DNA of 11,661 bases from an uncultured Mycoplasmataceae bacterium (GTDB taxonomy: Bacteria; Bacillota_I; Bacilli_A; Mycoplasmatales; Mycoplasmoidaceae): the NCBI GenBank assembly GCA_949290035.1, contig CASEQO010000038.1, positions 1 to 11,661 of the forward strand, given 5' to 3'. This document shows, in pieces, positions 2,849-11,661 of this stretch (positions are counted from its first letter, which is position 1; each line of letters starts with the position of its first letter). The position numbers and the translations under genes were made by a program. Under the pieces are notes generated by a model, which saw nothing but the letters and a program-made list of their open reading frames with translations, was not told the origin of the DNA and searched no databases.

Positions 2849-2854
2849 CTCCTT
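2849..2854 (-). promoter_or_regulatory. Ribosome binding site AAGGAG overlapping a stop codon
   Basis: The Shine-Dalgarno sequence shares bases with the TAA stop of the upstream 176-aa gene (2853-2855) and precedes the ATG at 2839 by 9 nt. It fixes the start of the 78-aa gene. Confidence 0.85.
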
Positions 2855-3383
2855 ATTTAAAGTGATAAACCAATACGCAAATTAATGAAGACACTAAAGT
2901 TATAATACTAAAAATTCAAGAAACTATATACATTATTTTAGTTGAAGATATTTTTTCTTTTATAAAATCTTTAAAATCATCATATGTACTAAAGTTTTTT
3001 ATAATTCTAGTATTTTTATAATCTACAACTTCTTTTAGCTTATTAAGTTTAATTCTTAATGATACTTGATGAATCATATATCTAACTCTTGATAAAAATT
3101 CTTTTCTACCCATTCATCAAAAAATATTATAAGCTAAAGAAAAAACTGATGCTATTAATCATATATCATATCATTTTAATTTATATAATGTTCCTTTATA
3201 TCAATCATCATATACATCTCAAATTAATATACCAATGATTAAAATTAATGAAAAAATTATCAAATTAAAAATAAATGCAATTATTCCTTTTGGATATGTA
3301 TTATTTTTAACATCAGAATAATCAACATCGCTAATTTGTTGATTATTTCTTCTAATATGATAGCCTGATTTTATTTCATTCAT
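2853..3383 (-). CDS. Hypothetical three-helix membrane protein, 176 aa, coupled to oppF
   Basis: The frame is continuous only if seven TGA codons are read as Trp, five of them in or beside membrane segments. The ATG at 3383 lies inside the end of oppF (13-nt overlap, different frame) and lacks a clear Shine-Dalgarno, so translation is probably coupled to oppF. The N-terminus is polar for 30 residues. Helices follow at about 33-56 and 72-91; the second ends in IFWWMGRKEF. A long basic amphipathic middle covers about 92-148. A third helix lies at about 150-173 and the protein ends LVYHFK. I do not recognise a family. The tight link to oppF suggests a role near the peptide transporter, but that rests only on context. 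The start is the least certain part; a shorter form from the ATG at 3113 would lose two helices and is unlikely. Confidence 0.8.
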
Positions 3384-5632
3384 AACTTAAATTGTGATTC
3401 ACTTGCTAAAACTTCATGACCTTCACTAACTTCATAAAATTTAGGGACATTCGAAATTGAATATTCTTTTGCATATTCTGAATTATCGTTAAATGATGCT
3501 AAATCTACATCCATTTTATTCAATTCAGGAACAGCCATAAATAATGATTTAGTATATGGGTGAATAGGATTTTTAAATACTTTTTCAACTAATCCTTTTT
3601 CAACTATTGAACCATTATGCATAATAATAACTTTATTACAAATATGTTGCACCATTGAAAGATCGTGAGCTATAAATAAGAAAGTCATACCTTTTTTATC
3701 ACAAAGATCTTTCATAATATTTATAACTTGAGCTTGAACAGATACATCTAATGCTGATATAGCTTCATCAGCTATTATTAATTTAGGATCAGTTATTAAT
3801 GCTCTAGCAATCACTATTCTTTGTCTTTGTCCACCTGAAAATTCATGAGGATATCTAAAAGCATGCTCTCTTTTTAAACCTACAGATTCTAATAATTCAT
3901 ATACTTTATTTAATGTTTTTATTTTAATAAGTTCACTTTTATATAAAAATAAAACTAATTTAGATTTTGAACATAATTTAATGTTTATTAGATGAATGTT
4001 TAAAATATTTTTATATTCTCAATTTATTGATGATAATGTTTTATTTTTTGTAGATATTTGAATTTGAAAAGATTTTTTATTTTTATTAATTATTTCTTTT
4101 TGTTCTTTTTTAGAGAATTTTTCAAGTGCAGATGGTCTTAATTTATATAATTGTGAACAATGTGAGTTAAATAATTTCTTCATGATTTTTGTTTGTAATT
4201 TTATCTCTTTTAAAAGATTAGAAATTTTGTTTTCAAATTCACTATAAATATCTTTTTTATTATTTAGATATTGTTGTTTGTAGTCATTATAAAATTTTGA
4301 AGTATCTAAATTATTTTCATTATTAGCATTATTTCCTTTTTTAAATTTATTTAATGAATCTAATTTTTCTTTAACAATATCTTCTAGATCTTTTAATTTT
4401 TGTTGATCTTCATTATAATTTTTATCATTTGTGTCTTTTAATGATGAAATTATATTATTTGAATTTTCATTAATCATTTTTTTCAATGAAGATGTAGATA
4501 ATTTTTCTTTAATGATTTGGATACTATCATTAAATTCGTTTTCAGAATTTATTGAAAATAATTGATTATTAATTTCTTTAAAATATTCATTAGATATTTT
4601 TAATAATGGATTAAGGAATTCATTTATTTGCTCATCAGAAATACTTTTAAATTGAATCATTAATTTACAAAAATAAATATCAACCAAAGCTTTTTGAGAA
4701 ATTATTTTTTCATTTCAATATGAAATTTTATTATTTGTTATCTTGGCATTATCAATGCTAAATTTTCTCTGAAGTTTTAAATCATTAATTTTTATTTTTA
4801 ATAATTTTTTTTGTTCTTTTTCTTTTAATAAAATTTTAAACTTAGAAAGTTCATTTTTAGAGTTTTCATATTCTTTTTTTACTTGAATTAACTCAGATGA
4901 TTCATCACTATTATTTAAATATTTTCTTAGACTAAAGTCAATTTCTTCATTATTTAATACATTATTAATTATTTCATTTTCTGAATCTATTAAATTAGAT
5001 AAGTCATTAATATTAATTTTCATTTCAGTTATAAAATCATTATATTGATCATCTATTTGATTAAAAGATTCAATTCAATCATCTTGATTTATAAAAGAAA
5101 AATTATTTAAATCATCAATTTTATTTTTTATAGTTAATAAATATTTTTCATAAAAATCAATAATTTTTGGATAATATATTTCATTAATTTTGTTCATTAA
5201 ATAATATTGAAGTGAACTATTAATTTTTTGTTTTATTTTTATATCTTTTTTAACTTCATTTTTGATTGTTTTATTAATAACTAACGGTTCAGAAACTAAT
5301 TTTAAAATATTCATTTTCGGATTCAATGATGACATTGGATCTTGAAAAACCATTTGTATATTATTAGTTATATAATTAAAATCATTTTTATTAACTTTTT
5401 TAGAAGATATTAATTTGTCATAAAAATAAACATTACCTCCTGAAATAGGATACAATCTTATAATTGATTTTCCTAATGTAGTTTTTCCAGAACCTGATTC
5501 ACCAATAATTCCATAAAAATCACCTTCTTCAACATCAAAATTAATATTTTTTAAGGCATGTTTTAAAGATCCACGTTTTTTAAAAAATTTATTAACATTA
5601 TTTACAGATAATATTTTATTTTTTTCTTCCAT
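3371..5632 (-). CDS. oppF: Oligopeptide ABC transporter ATP-binding protein OppF with a very large insertion, 753 aa
   Basis: This is one of the two ATPases that drive peptide import. The frame is single and in phase throughout when TGA is Trp. Visible motifs are Walker A GESGSGKT (residues 44-51), the Q-loop in [11 protein letters not shown] (Gln97), the ABC signature SGGQRQR (599-605), Walker B LIIADE (618-623) and the switch His in FIAHD (His656). Some 500 residues separate the Q-loop from the signature, where about 55-60 are usual. The extra part is Lys/Asn/Glu/Ile-rich and mostly helical, with a likely coiled coil around the region starting [15 protein letters not shown]. Overlong OppF proteins are known in other mycoplasmas. 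The C-terminus ends QFKLWMK after a TGA; under the standard code it would stop 3 codons early. The start overlaps the oppD end by 17 nt. The C-terminal region lacks the cysteines of many OppF proteins. Confidence 0.96.
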
Positions 5633-7199
5633 CTTTTTCTTCCATTCCTTTCTTATTTGCGATTGCTTTTGATGCTGATTTAATTTTATTCATTACATCT
5701 TTTGGTATAGGTATATTTGGGGCGTCAGGGTGTAATAATCATGTTGCAGCTTTATGAGAATCAGTGATTTTAAATAATGGTGGTTGCTCTTCAAAATCTA
5801 ATTTTATAGCATATTTATTTCTTGGAGCAAAAGCATCACCTTTTGGAGGCATCACCATATTTGGAGGTGATCCTGGAATGCTTTCAAGTTTTTCATTTGA
5901 TCCAGATTCTGGAATTGATGAAATAAGTGCTCATGTATATGGATGTCTAGGATTTGAAAAAAGCTCATATGTTTTTGCTTGTTCTACAATTTTTCCTGCA
6001 TACATAACATATATATAATCACAAAGATTAGCTACTAAACCAATGTTATGTGAAATAAATATAATTGCTACATTAAATTCTTTACAAACTTTTTTAATTA
6101 AATCTATAACTTTTGCTTGAACTGTTACATCTAATGCAGTTGTTGGTTCATCAGCTATTATTAATTGTGGTTCAGCTAATAAAGTCATTGCAATAACAAT
6201 TCTTTGTCTCATACCACCTGAAAATTCATGTGGAAATAATTTTCATTTTGTTTCTGGATCACTAATACCAATATATTCAAGTGTTCCTAATATTCTTTTA
6301 TTAATATTTGAACTTCTTAATCTATATTGATATTTAAATTTAATTTTTTTTATTGAAATTTTATATCATAGTTTTAATGCTTGATTAGATAAATGTTTGT
6401 ATTCATTTAAATAATATATGTTTGCATCGAATTCAGATTTTTTAAATGAATACAATAATTCATTATATTCATTTAAAAATAATTTATCATTTGAATTTAT
6501 GTCATTTACTTTTTTATCTAGAAATTCTAGTTTTTGACTATAAACTTCTTTTATATTACTTTCTGTATTATTTAAATTTGATATTTTTTTATATCAAGTT
6601 TCTAATGCAGTTTTTGATCTATTTGATTGTTCTTCTAAGAATTTTAATTCTTTTTCATTATTTATTTTTTTAAGATTATCAATATCATCATTAATTTTTG
6701 ATGCATCAAAATTATTTGAGCTATCAAAACTATTTGCATTAATTATGTTTTGATATTCTTCTTTTAATTTTATTAAATCTCATTTTTGTTTTCTTTTTTG
6801 AGCAATTTTGTAAGCTTCTACTAATTGCTTTTTAATAGTCATTGTAGGATTTAATGACATTAAAGGATCTTGAGGTATATAACCTATTTGAGTACCTCTA
6901 ATATAGATTCAATCATTTTTAGATATTTTTGAAAGATCTATATTTAAAAATTGCATTTTATTAACTTCAGTTATACTATTTTCATTGAATCCAGTTAATG
7001 CTTTTAAAGTAACTGATTTACCTGATCCAGATTCACCTACTAGACCTATAAGTTGTCCTTTATTTACACTAATAGATACATCTCTAACAGCTCTAACTAA
7101 TCCCAATTTATTCTTAAAATAAACTGATAAATTTTTAACCTCAAGTATTCTATTTTCTTTTAATTTGTGCTCATCACTTAAAAATAAATTTCTATTCAT
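5616..7199 (-). CDS. oppD: Oligopeptide ABC transporter ATP-binding protein OppD with an insertion, 527 aa
   Basis: Partner ATPase of OppF at the cytoplasmic face of the permease. Motifs are Walker A GESGSGKS (55-62), the Q-loop in GYIPQDPLMSLNP (Gln110), the signature SGGMRQR (327-333, the usual OppD form), Walker B LIIADEP (346-352) and the switch His in FISHN (His384). The Q-loop to signature distance is about 217 residues instead of about 55, caused by a helical Lys/Asn/Glu-rich insertion at roughly residues 135-300. The C-terminal substrate-specificity region (HPYTWAL, then PGSPPN, then PPKGDAFAPRNKYA, then HKAATWLLHPDAP) is typical in layout, but its normal cysteines are replaced. An AGGAG (7211-7215), inside the end of the permease gene, serves the ATG at 7199 with 11-nt spacing. 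The gap to the upstream gene is 3 nt. The end overlaps oppF by 17 nt. Confidence 0.96.
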
Positions 7200-7202
7200 A
7201 AA

Positions 7203-9464
7203 TTATTGTTCTCCTGAAACTTTTGGATCTAGTGCATCATTAAATGCATTAGCTATAATTTGAGCACATAAAGTAATTAAAACAATTATTAATGTTGGTC
7301 CAATTAATAAGTAGAAGTATCCTGATTGTCTTGCAGTTTCAATCATAGATCCTAAACCAATTTCAGTTGGTAAAACCAATCCTAAAAAAACTAGTGATGT
7401 TTCAAAGAAAATTGTTCTAGGTATTTGATTTACAAATCTAACCATTAATTTCCCTGAAATGTTTGGAAGTAAGTGAACAAATATTAATCTTGCATTAGAT
7501 GCACCTAATGTTCTAGAAGCTTGAATATATTCAGCATCTTTATATTTCATTACAAAAACTCTTGTAGACATTGCAGGTCATATTCACCCTACCACTACTA
7601 ATGAAATTGCAACAGTAATAGGATCTAATAATCCTCCTGCAAATACCAATGAAATTACTAGAATTCATACTATTGTAGGAACACCAGAAAGTATTTCAAC
7701 TATTCTCATCATTATTGTATCTATTGGTTTTCCTGCATTATAACCTGCTATTGCTCCATATATAGCACCAATTATTGTAGAAAATGCTGAAACTATAATA
7801 GCTATCAACAATGATCTTGAAGTACTAATTCACATTACATTTCATCAATCTCTTCCACTAGAATCTGTACCAAAAATTGGATAAAAATCTTTTAATGCAT
7901 CAACATAATATGGATTATATGTAGCTTGTCATAATCCTGTACTTATTTCTTCAGCTTTAATGATTGCACCTGCATCTTTTAAAGCGTTGTATAATTCGTC
8001 ACTAATTATTCCACTAACTTCTCCATTTAATCCTAATCAAGGAATTCTTGGAGGTAAATAAATACCTAGTGTAGTAACTTTATCTGTTATAGATGCTTGA
8101 ACTGGTTGACCAAATGCTGGTATAAAAATTGATAACAATAATATTATTAAAAATAATATTGAGAATACTAAGGCTCATTTATTTTTAATAAATCTTCTTA
8201 ATATATCCATTCATTGACTTGTAGGTTTTCCAGATACATTATCAAATAAATTTAATTTTTCGATATCAACAAAATTAAATTTTTCAGAAGAATAAGAATT
8301 TAAATTAGAATTATAGACTTGAGGTTTATTTTCGTTAAATGTTATTGATGATGATTGAACATTAATTTGACTAATACTAGAATCATTGTTAGTTTCTAAA
8401 TAAGATTGATTTAGATTTAATTGTTCATCAATAATGTTTGGTACTTTAATTTTTAAACCTAAGTTTTTACGAATTGCAATTTTAGATTTAATTTGTTTTA
8501 AGAAAGATTTACTTGATGCTTCGCTTAATTGAATTCTTGGATCAATTATTGTACTAATAACATCAAATGCAATTTGCATTAAGAAATAAATTCCTGTATA
8601 AAATAATGCAGAGAACATTATTATGTATACATTTTTCTTTTGCACTGCATTAACTATTAAATTAGCTGTACCTGGAACATTAAAGAATTGTTCTATAATT
8701 ATTGATCCAGAAATAACTGCAAGTAATGATGGTAATAACGAATATAAAATAGGTATTAATCCATTTCTTAATCCATGTTTAAATACAACTGTTCTGAATT
8801 TCATACCTTTAGCTAGAGCAGTTCTAATATATTCTTGTCTAAATACTTCCACCATTTCGTTTCTTGTGAAATATACAACTGTTGAAGTAGAAGTCATAAC
8901 CATAGAAAGAATAGGGATAATAAGAGAAAGGAATAATTTTCCTATAGTGTAATCTTCACTACCTGGAACAATAAAGTTTGTAGGTAAATTTATTAATCCA
9001 GCTAATTGAACTAAATAAAGAGCCATTACAAACGATGGAATAGAAACAAATATTACTGAAACAGTATTTATCAATGTATCTTGTCATCTACCCCTAAAAT
9101 ATGCTGATACTATACCCAATATAATTCCTAACAATGAAGAAATTATAAATGCAGGTAAAGCTATCATCATTGTATAAGCAACAGGTTTCATAAAAGTCTC
9201 TATAACAGGGGTACTAACTTTTTCATAGTCTATACCAAAATTACCTGTTGTAAATAAATCTTTTCAAAACACTAAATATTGTGTAAAAGGGTCTTTATCT
9301 AATCCAAGTGAAACTAATCTATTAAAAAAATCAGCATCACTTTCTTTCACATCTTTTTCAATAGGATAACCAGGTATTAATTGCATTAGGAAAAATAACA
9401 ATGTTAATAATATAAACATTGCTAGTAAAGCAAAACCTATCCTCTTTAATATATATTTAAGCAT
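7203..9464 (-). CDS. Fused oligopeptide permease OppB-OppC, 753 aa
   Basis: Both membrane subunits of the peptide channel lie in one uninterrupted frame if TGA is Trp. Residues 1-311 are OppB: an N-terminal helix (9-29), the IPGYP motif, the EAA loop (about 211-240, EYIRTALAKGMKF) and the terminal DPRI (308-311). Residues 312-395 are an Asn/Ser-rich linker. OppC follows: FNFVDIEKLNLFDNVSGKPTSQW, first helix at about 429-449, GTDSSGRD near 530, an EAA loop near 645-667 (EYIQASRTLGASNAR) and the ending NDALDPKVSGEQ. The only stop candidate at the junction is TGA (8211-8213), directly followed by ATG (8210). Many other TGA codons in the same frame clearly encode Trp, so it should not stop. The alternative is separate oppB and oppC genes, with oppC starting at a non-ATG codon in the linker. 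An AGGA (9471-9474) 6 nt upstream supports the start at 9464. Sure of both subunits, less of the fusion. Confidence 0.85.
8280..8531 (-). other. Linker-coding segment joining OppB and OppC
   Basis: About 84 residues lie between the conserved end of OppB (DPRI) and the start of recognisable OppC (FNFVDIEK). The first part is basic (SFLKQIKSKIAIRKNLGLKI). The rest is Asn/Ser/Gln-rich and probably disordered. It contains no in-frame ATG and no TAA, TAG or TGA. I see no AGGAG-like site in it. OppB C-termini and OppC N-termini are both cytoplasmic in the family, so a cytoplasmic linker fits the topology. Confidence 0.75.
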
Positions 9465-9482: not shown

Positions 9483-11661
9483 TTAATCAAATTGTTTTAG
9501 TCAATTATTTTTATAATTTAAGATAACTCAAATATCTCTTCTCATTAATGCATAATTAAGTTCATTTGATGCTAATTCATAATAAGTAGTAAAGCCATTT
9601 TTATTTATTGGCATATTACCATAAGGAATTACAGATATTTGAAAGTTTGGATTATCTTCTGGAATCGCTAGTGCTGCTAAAGAATATCAATCTATAGAAT
9701 TTATAATAGCTTTTCTTATTTTCATACTATTACCATTTTCTACACTAAAGTCTTTTACAATAGCATTATAATATTCTTTTGAAACTAAACTTTTTAAAAC
9801 TCTTTTGTTTTCATTTATATCTTCTACAACTCTTGATGAGTCTACACCATCAGCAGATTTATATCCAATGTTATTATCATCTCTTTCTAATACATTAATA
9901 TTAAATGAAACGATATCAGTTTTAGAAACATTAGATACACCTTCTGTTCTAAAAGAACTTTTCATTGTTCTTGCAGCTTGATCGATTCTTGAAATTGGAA
10001 TATTAGATCTATCAATTTCATTATTTTGAAATTGAGTATATGTTAATTGATCTGAAAAAGCTCCTCCATATTTCATTACTACAGTTCCAATTTTTTGATT
10101 TTTATTTGTAAACATATCACTTGGAAATTGATTAAAGTAATTATCATTTAATTTGAAAGTAATATCTTGTTCAGTTGCTTTTGTAACATAATATGATCCA
10201 GCACTTCATCAATTTTGATAATTTTCAAATCTATTACCTGAACCATATAAATTGTTAAAATCAGATTTTTTAACATCATAAGATGCTTTTCCTTGACTAT
10301 TAACAGTGTAATATAAACCTTTACTTGATTCTTTTCCTTGAAAAATATTTTGTACTAATGTATTTTTAATTGGAAGGGGTTGAAAATATTGTTTAGCTAT
10401 AATATCTAAAAAGTTTACATTTGGTCTTTTTAATACCATAGTAAATTTATTAATACTATTTGATAAGTCATTACTTGATTGTAAATTATTTTTAATTTTT
10501 ATATTTCAAGAGCTATACTTTTGATTTTCTGGTAAATTTGTATCTATTAAATCAAAAAATTGTGTATTAGCTTTTATTGTTTCATCAACATCTAGTCCCA
10601 TTAAATCAATAAAATAACTATTAGTATTTACATTTATATCACAAGATAGTATATATCCTAAAAATCCAAAAAAGAAATCTGCAGCTGTTAATGGAACGTT
10701 TGTATTTCCATCAATACTATATCAATTAAATCTTTGTGGATCAATGATAAATTCGTATTTTAAAGCACTTTTAGCTTTATTTCTAACATCTTCTTCTTGA
10801 CCTGCTTTATAAATAGTAAAATCATCTACTGATGATGAACTTGTTGCATTACCTGAACTAGGGAAAGTTTTTATTTCACTTCCATTGCTATCTTTCATTA
10901 TTATTTTTGTTGGCGCACCTAATGTTAATTCTGCTTCAGGTTTTTTTCAAGTTCCATCATCATTCATTTCTCAATCACCATTAATTTTTCAATCAGTTAA
11001 TCCATTAAATGTTGATTGAAAAAATTGACTATTTGCAGCATCATTAAAAGATGGGTTGTAAGGAGTTTTGTTAGTTTCAAACGGATCGTTTGCTAATCAT
11101 ATTGTAAATTTTTTAGAAATAGCATCATTTCCATCATAATATCAATCTCTAAATGTTTCTTCACTATAAGTATTTTTTGGTGTATGGAAATTTTCTCTAA
11201 CTAATAATTTTTTAGTAGTTGTTGGCCCATCTGAAATTCACGGAATCATTTGATATTGACTATTCATTCAAGATACAAAACTAATTGCATTTTCTTGATC
11301 TGCAGTATCTGCTCATTCACCTATTGTATTACTAATATTAGTACTTTTAAAATTAGTACTTTGCCCATTAGTTTTAGCTACTAAATCAATTTCTAATAAT
11401 GAATCATAAGATTGGAATAAATTATTTGTAAATCCTTTATCTATAAATCATTGTGGTTCTTGAGCAAATAATTTTTCATTTTCTAAAAATGATTTCAAAT
11501 CATCTTCTCATACTTGATTATCACCATCACTTAATTCATTATATAAATTAGGTCATAGATCAGGAACTACATATGTATCACAAAATCAAAAACTTAATCA
11601 TGTTCCTATATTATGATAATCTGGTGATCAAAACATTGATACCATTTCTCCATTTTTTTGT
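9483..11661 (-). CDS. oppA: Oligopeptide-binding protein OppA-like, N-terminus beyond the window
   Basis: This is the likely extracellular peptide-binding lipoprotein of the transporter. The frame is open from the right edge to TAA (9483-9485) with TGA as Trp, giving about 725 visible residues. Signal peptide and lipobox are not visible. Family 5 solute-binding features can be seen: ANDPFETNKTPYNPSF followed by a FQSTFNGL segment near 11000-11100, then NTNVPLTAADFFFGFLGY near 10690, then VLKRPNVNFLDIIAKQYFQPLP, then SAGSYYV, YGGAFSDQLTYTQFQNNEIDR and KIRKAIINSID. These match the N-lobe order of OppA/DppA. Upstream of them, near the right edge, is FWSPDYHNIGTWLSFWF, which resembles the ADY-type motif normally found late in the C-lobe. 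At least 320 residues precede the LTAAD motif, against about 100 in usual OppA. It is first in the visible operon; the promoter lies outside. The assignment to oppA rests on motifs plus position. Confidence 0.85.

Follow-up and report, generated by a model that had tools for sequence, protein, structure and literature searches.

Peptide importers are normally heteromeric, and they are likely to be a main amino-acid source for bacteria with very reduced genomes. In the closest described systems, the OppBCDF, OppABCD and DppABCDF complexes (Protein Data Bank (PDB) entries 8z21, 8j5q and 8z1v), the permease subunits are separate chains. The gene considered here, oppBC, lies on the minus strand of an 11,661-nucleotide stretch of DNA (the window; contig CASEQO010000038.1 of assembly GCA_949290035.1, from an uncultured Mycoplasmataceae bacterium). 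Its two halves match OppB or OppC of those complexes in sequence and fold, and it has oppA-like, oppD and oppF neighbours as they do; in contrast to them, both halves stand in one frame, joined by an 89-residue linker. Separate OppB and OppC chains are the usual arrangement and not a defining requirement, and oppBC is a variant of the Opp/Dpp permeases. The reading in which oppBC makes one OppB-linker-OppC polypeptide, whose halves would pair within the chain as an ordinary Opp translocation path, is supported by a junction that stays open in relatives, the lack of a strong internal start, selection on the linker in relatives and predicted docking of the halves, and is given a probability of about 0.88.

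Other importers, too, have chains that combine two permease units. FhuB of E. coli, which has 20 helices per chain, belongs to a different importer class from oppBC. It resembles oppBC in carrying two permease halves per chain, within a pseudo two-fold complex, as described in PMC3654945 and PMC8660799. FbpB of Thermus thermophilus (PDB 9j4r_A) and FutB likewise have two permease units per chain, docked as a pseudo-dimer, but they are iron importers, and oppBC is only 14% identical to 9j4r_A over the aligned residues. Section 9 of PMC3654945 describes FutB-like iron permeases as two permease units in one chain and proteins of 12 transmembrane segments as internal duplications, whereas oppBC joined two partners that already differed.

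The oppBC gene (7203..9464, minus strand) is confirmed as a single open reading frame (ORF) of 753 codons under genetic code 4, with no TAA or TAG from OppB through the linker into OppC, as an earlier reading made from the sequence alone had described; the calculated mass of the product is 84.2 kDa, and that sequence-only reading expected a band near 85 kDa. The frame holds 12 TGA codons, including the one at 8211..8213 (Trp418). Because four of them sit on tryptophan-conserved columns of 47 aligned sequences (W627 in all 47; W540, W545 and W600 in at least 90%), TGA is taken as tryptophan in oppBC, so that the reading of 8211..8213 as tryptophan is borne out at the level of the gene; the column of residue 418 itself holds W in 15, I in 12 and L in 11 of the 47 sequences.

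Pfam PF00528 (BPD_transp_1) matches the product in two stretches, one per half (172 bits against a cut-off of 26.4). The OppB half, a six-helix permease domain (residues 1-315; 8520..9464, minus strand), is covered by NCBIfam Opp3B over residues 1-315 at 201.5 bits and resembles 8z21_A and 8j5q_B in a Foldseek search. The OppC half (residues 405-753; 7206..8252, minus strand) begins with the single match to OppC_N, PF12911 (residues 416-454; 35.4 bits, cut-off 23.9), carries the second BPD_transp_1 domain and has an OppC-type NCBIfam match at residues 407-749. PF19300, at 22.5 bits, falls slightly below its cut-off of 23.8. No named Opp subtype among the NCBIfam profiles reached its curated cut-off (best Opp3C, 232.6 against 450, and Opp3B, 201.5 against 480), and on these profile matches oppBC is classed as an Opp/Dpp permease at the family level, with the subtype left unassigned. 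A PDB sequence search returned nine sequences, all of them peptide-importer permeases, a result that speaks rather against descent from the iron permeases. In the predicted structure each half resembles a solved OppB or OppC in fold by Foldseek, and the two halves are docked as a pseudo-dimer, like a natural single-chain permease.

The junction was compared in relatives under code 4, as the sequence-only reading had proposed. Within the family, 44 of 95 genomes had a match and the junction was read in all 44, of which 10 are fused (G000, G001, G002, G067-G072 and G090, with G072 cut by its contig end) and 34 separate; in five of the separate genomes a further, distant locus was read, and in G086 two loci, all of them separate, while additional copies in G077 and in four g6 genomes stand outside this count. 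G078, in which the OppB frame is broken by TAG, was counted as separate. Fusions in G023, G024, G082, G076 and G077, suggested by listed open-frame length, were rejected on reading, which found a stop between the genes, and these genomes too were counted as separate. A protein search with the window gene gave 68 proteins among the 7998 best candidates scored; the first 47 of them, window included, were aligned and 21 partial or distant proteins left out. The aligned relatives, 46 clusters that overlap the family genome count (for example P0003 and P0036), contain both halves in every case and are 45-72% identical to the window. The open junction is thus common to 10 family genomes and 46 other clusters. 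In relatives with separate genes the junction differs, with a stop and an ATG close by, so that the separate genes with an identical junction that would have spoken against a fusion were not found.

At the order level, 320 genomes were searched and 240, including the 44 of the family, had a match. Junction reading there covered 22 genomes from a single other family, in part selected for their long open frames, and 174 genomes with a match stand outside it. One of the 22 is fused (G146), and its protein (P0069) is the 788-aa ABC transporter permease subunit of Mycoplasma miroungirhinis, which shares the OppB-OppC arrangement in one frame but differs in belonging to another family and in its separate fusion origin; the six other sampled genomes of its genus all have two separate genes. 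More distant single chains are P0071 (696 aa), with two BPD_transp_1 stretches and scores above the cut-offs for the OppB-type N-terminus and OppC_N, and P0052, P0054, P0058 and P0072 (1160-1225 aa), also with two BPD_transp_1 stretches each. All five are only distantly similar to oppBC, and the latter four have an extra C-terminal part, in which an M28 peptidase match lies above the cut-off in P0052 and P0072, is weak in P0054 and was not found in P0058; one of these four is named Anaerolineales. The statement of the sequence-only reading that known peptide importers encode OppB and OppC as two proteins is therefore overstated, since the two halves also share a chain in M. miroungirhinis and in some environmental proteins. 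No paper on an OppB-OppC fusion was among the literature matches listed, the exact phrases giving 0, in a search outside which most subscription journals lie, so that absence in print is unproven.

A possible mechanism can be outlined for the fused permease. OppB and OppC, with six membrane helices each, would be made as one chain that stays whole, with about 90 residues of flexible cytoplasmic linker between them, and pairing of the two halves within that chain could produce the usual OppB-OppC translocation path. OppD and OppF would contact a separate cytoplasmic coupling loop on each half, and OppA would deliver peptides to the tethered permease for import. Most likely, the importer functions like any other Opp system, apart from the tether in its permease.

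Several observations weigh against this picture. Most of the named fused relatives are metagenome bins, and g5 genomes inside the fused clade carry separate genes, so that the fusion is not indispensable. The docking of the halves is a prediction built on an alignment of fused sequences only, and the Foldseek superposition of the model on 9j4r_A is loose (TMt 0.57, root-mean-square deviation 15.0). The window's own linker, paired with that of G002 (L001/L002), gives a ratio of nonsynonymous to synonymous substitution rates (dN/dS) of 0.95 in a pair that is too diverged and has 16 gapped residues; the pair is uninformative, and the coding constraint described below is an observation on the relatives, not on this linker.

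How the fusion arose was considered from trees and from the spacing of the genes. A quick first tree of 73 rows (51 loci plus a set of 22 from the 46 fused protein relatives, leaving out L023 and L031, the latter a duplicate) needed three changes between fused and separate states, and a second tree with 12 long or distant rows removed again needed three. Forcing the fused rows of the family together without g5 was disfavoured (approximately unbiased test, p 0.021), a grouping defined after the first tree was known. These trees suggest that the family saw either a single fusion, followed by a split in g5, or two separate ones, and that another took place in M. miroungirhinis. Within the family the event would be ancient, going back to a common ancestor of this genus and its sister groups, unless it happened two times among them. 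In G090 (L006, genus g11) the gene is fused, while in the four remaining g11 genomes that gave a match all pairs are distant and separate; the fused gene there could reflect either transfer or a contaminated bin.

In all 40 separate loci measured (L023 dropped), oppB and oppC are adjacent, and the first in-frame oppC ATG lies between 32 nt before and 21 nt after the oppB stop. Because the genes touch, and stand in the same frame in 16 of 40 loci of a sample enriched for such cases, loss of a stop can fuse them; the stop and start between the touching genes may have been lost in frame. The fusion could accordingly be real and yet selectively neutral, a stop loss that became fixed by drift and brought no advantage for assembly or stoichiometry, a reading for which the chances are about even; this estimate concerns the reason for the fusion and not its existence, and it overlaps the probability given to the single polypeptide. 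Such an origin fits the gene spacing and the separate genes that reappear or persist in g5, but the fused state persists in lineages that diverged deeply, with identity as low as 45%. Nothing more than a near-neutral loss of the stop between touching genes is needed to explain the fusion, and a benefit in stoichiometry is no likelier than a neutral origin; the 1:1 stoichiometry that the sequence-only reading offered as its gain overreaches the evidence.

The linker (residues 316-404; 8253..8519, minus strand) is of low complexity, with 49% N+S+Q+K, and contains no ATG, GTG or TTG and no TAA or TAG. The absence of in-frame stops from its 89 codons has a chance of 0.0006 by base composition, and the shifted frames hold 8 and 14; in the linkers of 11 fused loci (10 from the family plus G146) the in-frame count is 0 of 1160, which is circular as the loci were chosen as fused, against 88 and 142 in the shifted frames. 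Because the shifted frames hold many stops, base composition is not behind the missing ones. In two close pairs of relatives the linker dN/dS is 0.33 and 0.25, which indicates purifying selection and hence a linker read as protein in those pairs; the rows L036/L037 and L039/L038 are irrelevant to fused linkers, L036, L037 and L038 being separate OppB genes.

The same linker would be the site of cutting if the chain were made whole and then cleaved by a protease into two subunits again. It has features expected of a protease-sensitive loop, being long, predicted to be disordered (predicted local distance difference test (pLDDT) below 50 at residues 337-385) and little conserved, with about 30% identity to the nearest relatives, but inspection by eye of the linker in 24 of the 47 rows showed no common cleavage motif and nothing speaks positively for cutting, which makes this course of events improbable.

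Ribosomes might instead restart inside the frame, for example at Met419, so that OppC is also made alone. The sequence-only reading had found no in-frame ATG in the linker, which holds for residues 316-404, but the ATG of Met419 (8208..8210, minus strand), the first one past the linker, stands directly after the TGA and had gone unmentioned. The Pfam OppC_N match starts at residue 416, and ATT codons of the junction show modest pairing of the Shine-Dalgarno (SD) kind (residue 339, -3.6; residue 426, -3.1). At Met419 the duplex energy with an assumed anti-SD sequence is 0.0 kcal/mol, compared with -4.0 for oppB, -7.4 for oppD and -6.5 for oppF. The energies scatter widely along the oppBC gene (mean -0.97, 5th percentile -5.74, so that the value of oppB falls inside), and SD strength is therefore weak evidence. 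Conservation weighs more: methionine occurs at position 419 in three of 47 sequences, window included, and 13 of the 47 linkers have no methionine at all; F396 and P414, which no sequence of the 47 lacks, lie upstream of Met419 and would be lost from an OppC started there. OppB would still be without a stop. In family relatives with separate genes, the OppC-frame ATG lies upstream of the F396 counterpart. A start at Met419 was judged unlikely, and an internal restart in general very much so.

The idea that two genes only look like one through an error in sequencing or assembly, by a lost stop or a frameshift, gains some colour from a source assembly that is 78% complete and in 159 contigs, but it is practically negligible, being ruled out by the open junction common to independent genomes. 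The source assembly has a single match, and the protein cluster of the window includes a second contig. The fusion is thus real and old and no sequencing slip, because related bacteria share the open junction.

Returning to the single OppB-linker-OppC chain, its linker is much longer in some relatives: 206-216 residues in five clusters (P0016, P0017, P0022, P0024 and P0028) and 217 in G070 (L012). For the G070 protein, a model built on a 31-row alignment (pLDDT 75.8, predicted template modelling score 0.63) contains a confident small domain at about residues 354-440 (pLDDT 74-89) in the order helix-strand-helix-helix-strand-strand, in the one protein modelled; from this order of elements the domain may be called winged-helix-like. 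Pfam searches of three long linkers gave one match only, PRD_Mga at E 0.15, far below the cut-off. P0023 and P0037, tree rows in the same group as G070, are shorter chains, and the linker of the window contains no such domain. Derivation of the long linkers from the C-terminal tail of unfused OppB (g6/g10) found no support, as hhalign matched only the first 26-29 columns, beside the OppB core. That single-chain OppBC is a lasting architecture of this mycoplasma-like group, with the linker becoming a regulatory module, is a doubtful proposition; if it were true, the tethered linker domain could gate import, either by sensing the state of peptide or nucleotide or by binding another protein.

The neighbours of oppBC, a binding-protein candidate and two ATPases, complete an importer operon. 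The oppD gene (5616..7199, minus strand), with its SD sequence just upstream at the end of oppBC, and oppF (3371..5632, minus strand), which has Pfam and NCBIfam matches, lie downstream. Upstream is the putative oppA-like gene (9483..11645, minus strand), whose 5' side reaches the contig end, leaving its start uncertain; the label is suggested by position and by PF17374 (DUF5396), a family of unknown function, and the gene also neighbours the fused loci L031, L054, L055 and L058. Profile match ranges show long inserts between the ATPase-domain halves of OppF and OppD (about 400 and 150 residues); OppD of the L031 relative is shorter (447 aa). A 176-aa ORF after oppF (2853..3383, minus strand), without a Pfam match and with an SD energy of only -2.3 at its start, has counterparts after oppF in L031, L054, L055 and L056 and no match in L057 and L058, and may belong to the operon.

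The fusion also bears on annotation: the source names seen for these proteins give only "ABC transporter permease subunit". A natural single-chain OppBC would fix which half pairs with which, and the fusion suggests that the two permease halves tolerate a covalent tether. Structural studies could use it as a single-chain template of an Opp permease, and the repeated fusion of touching genes would be a clear case of gene order turning into protein architecture.
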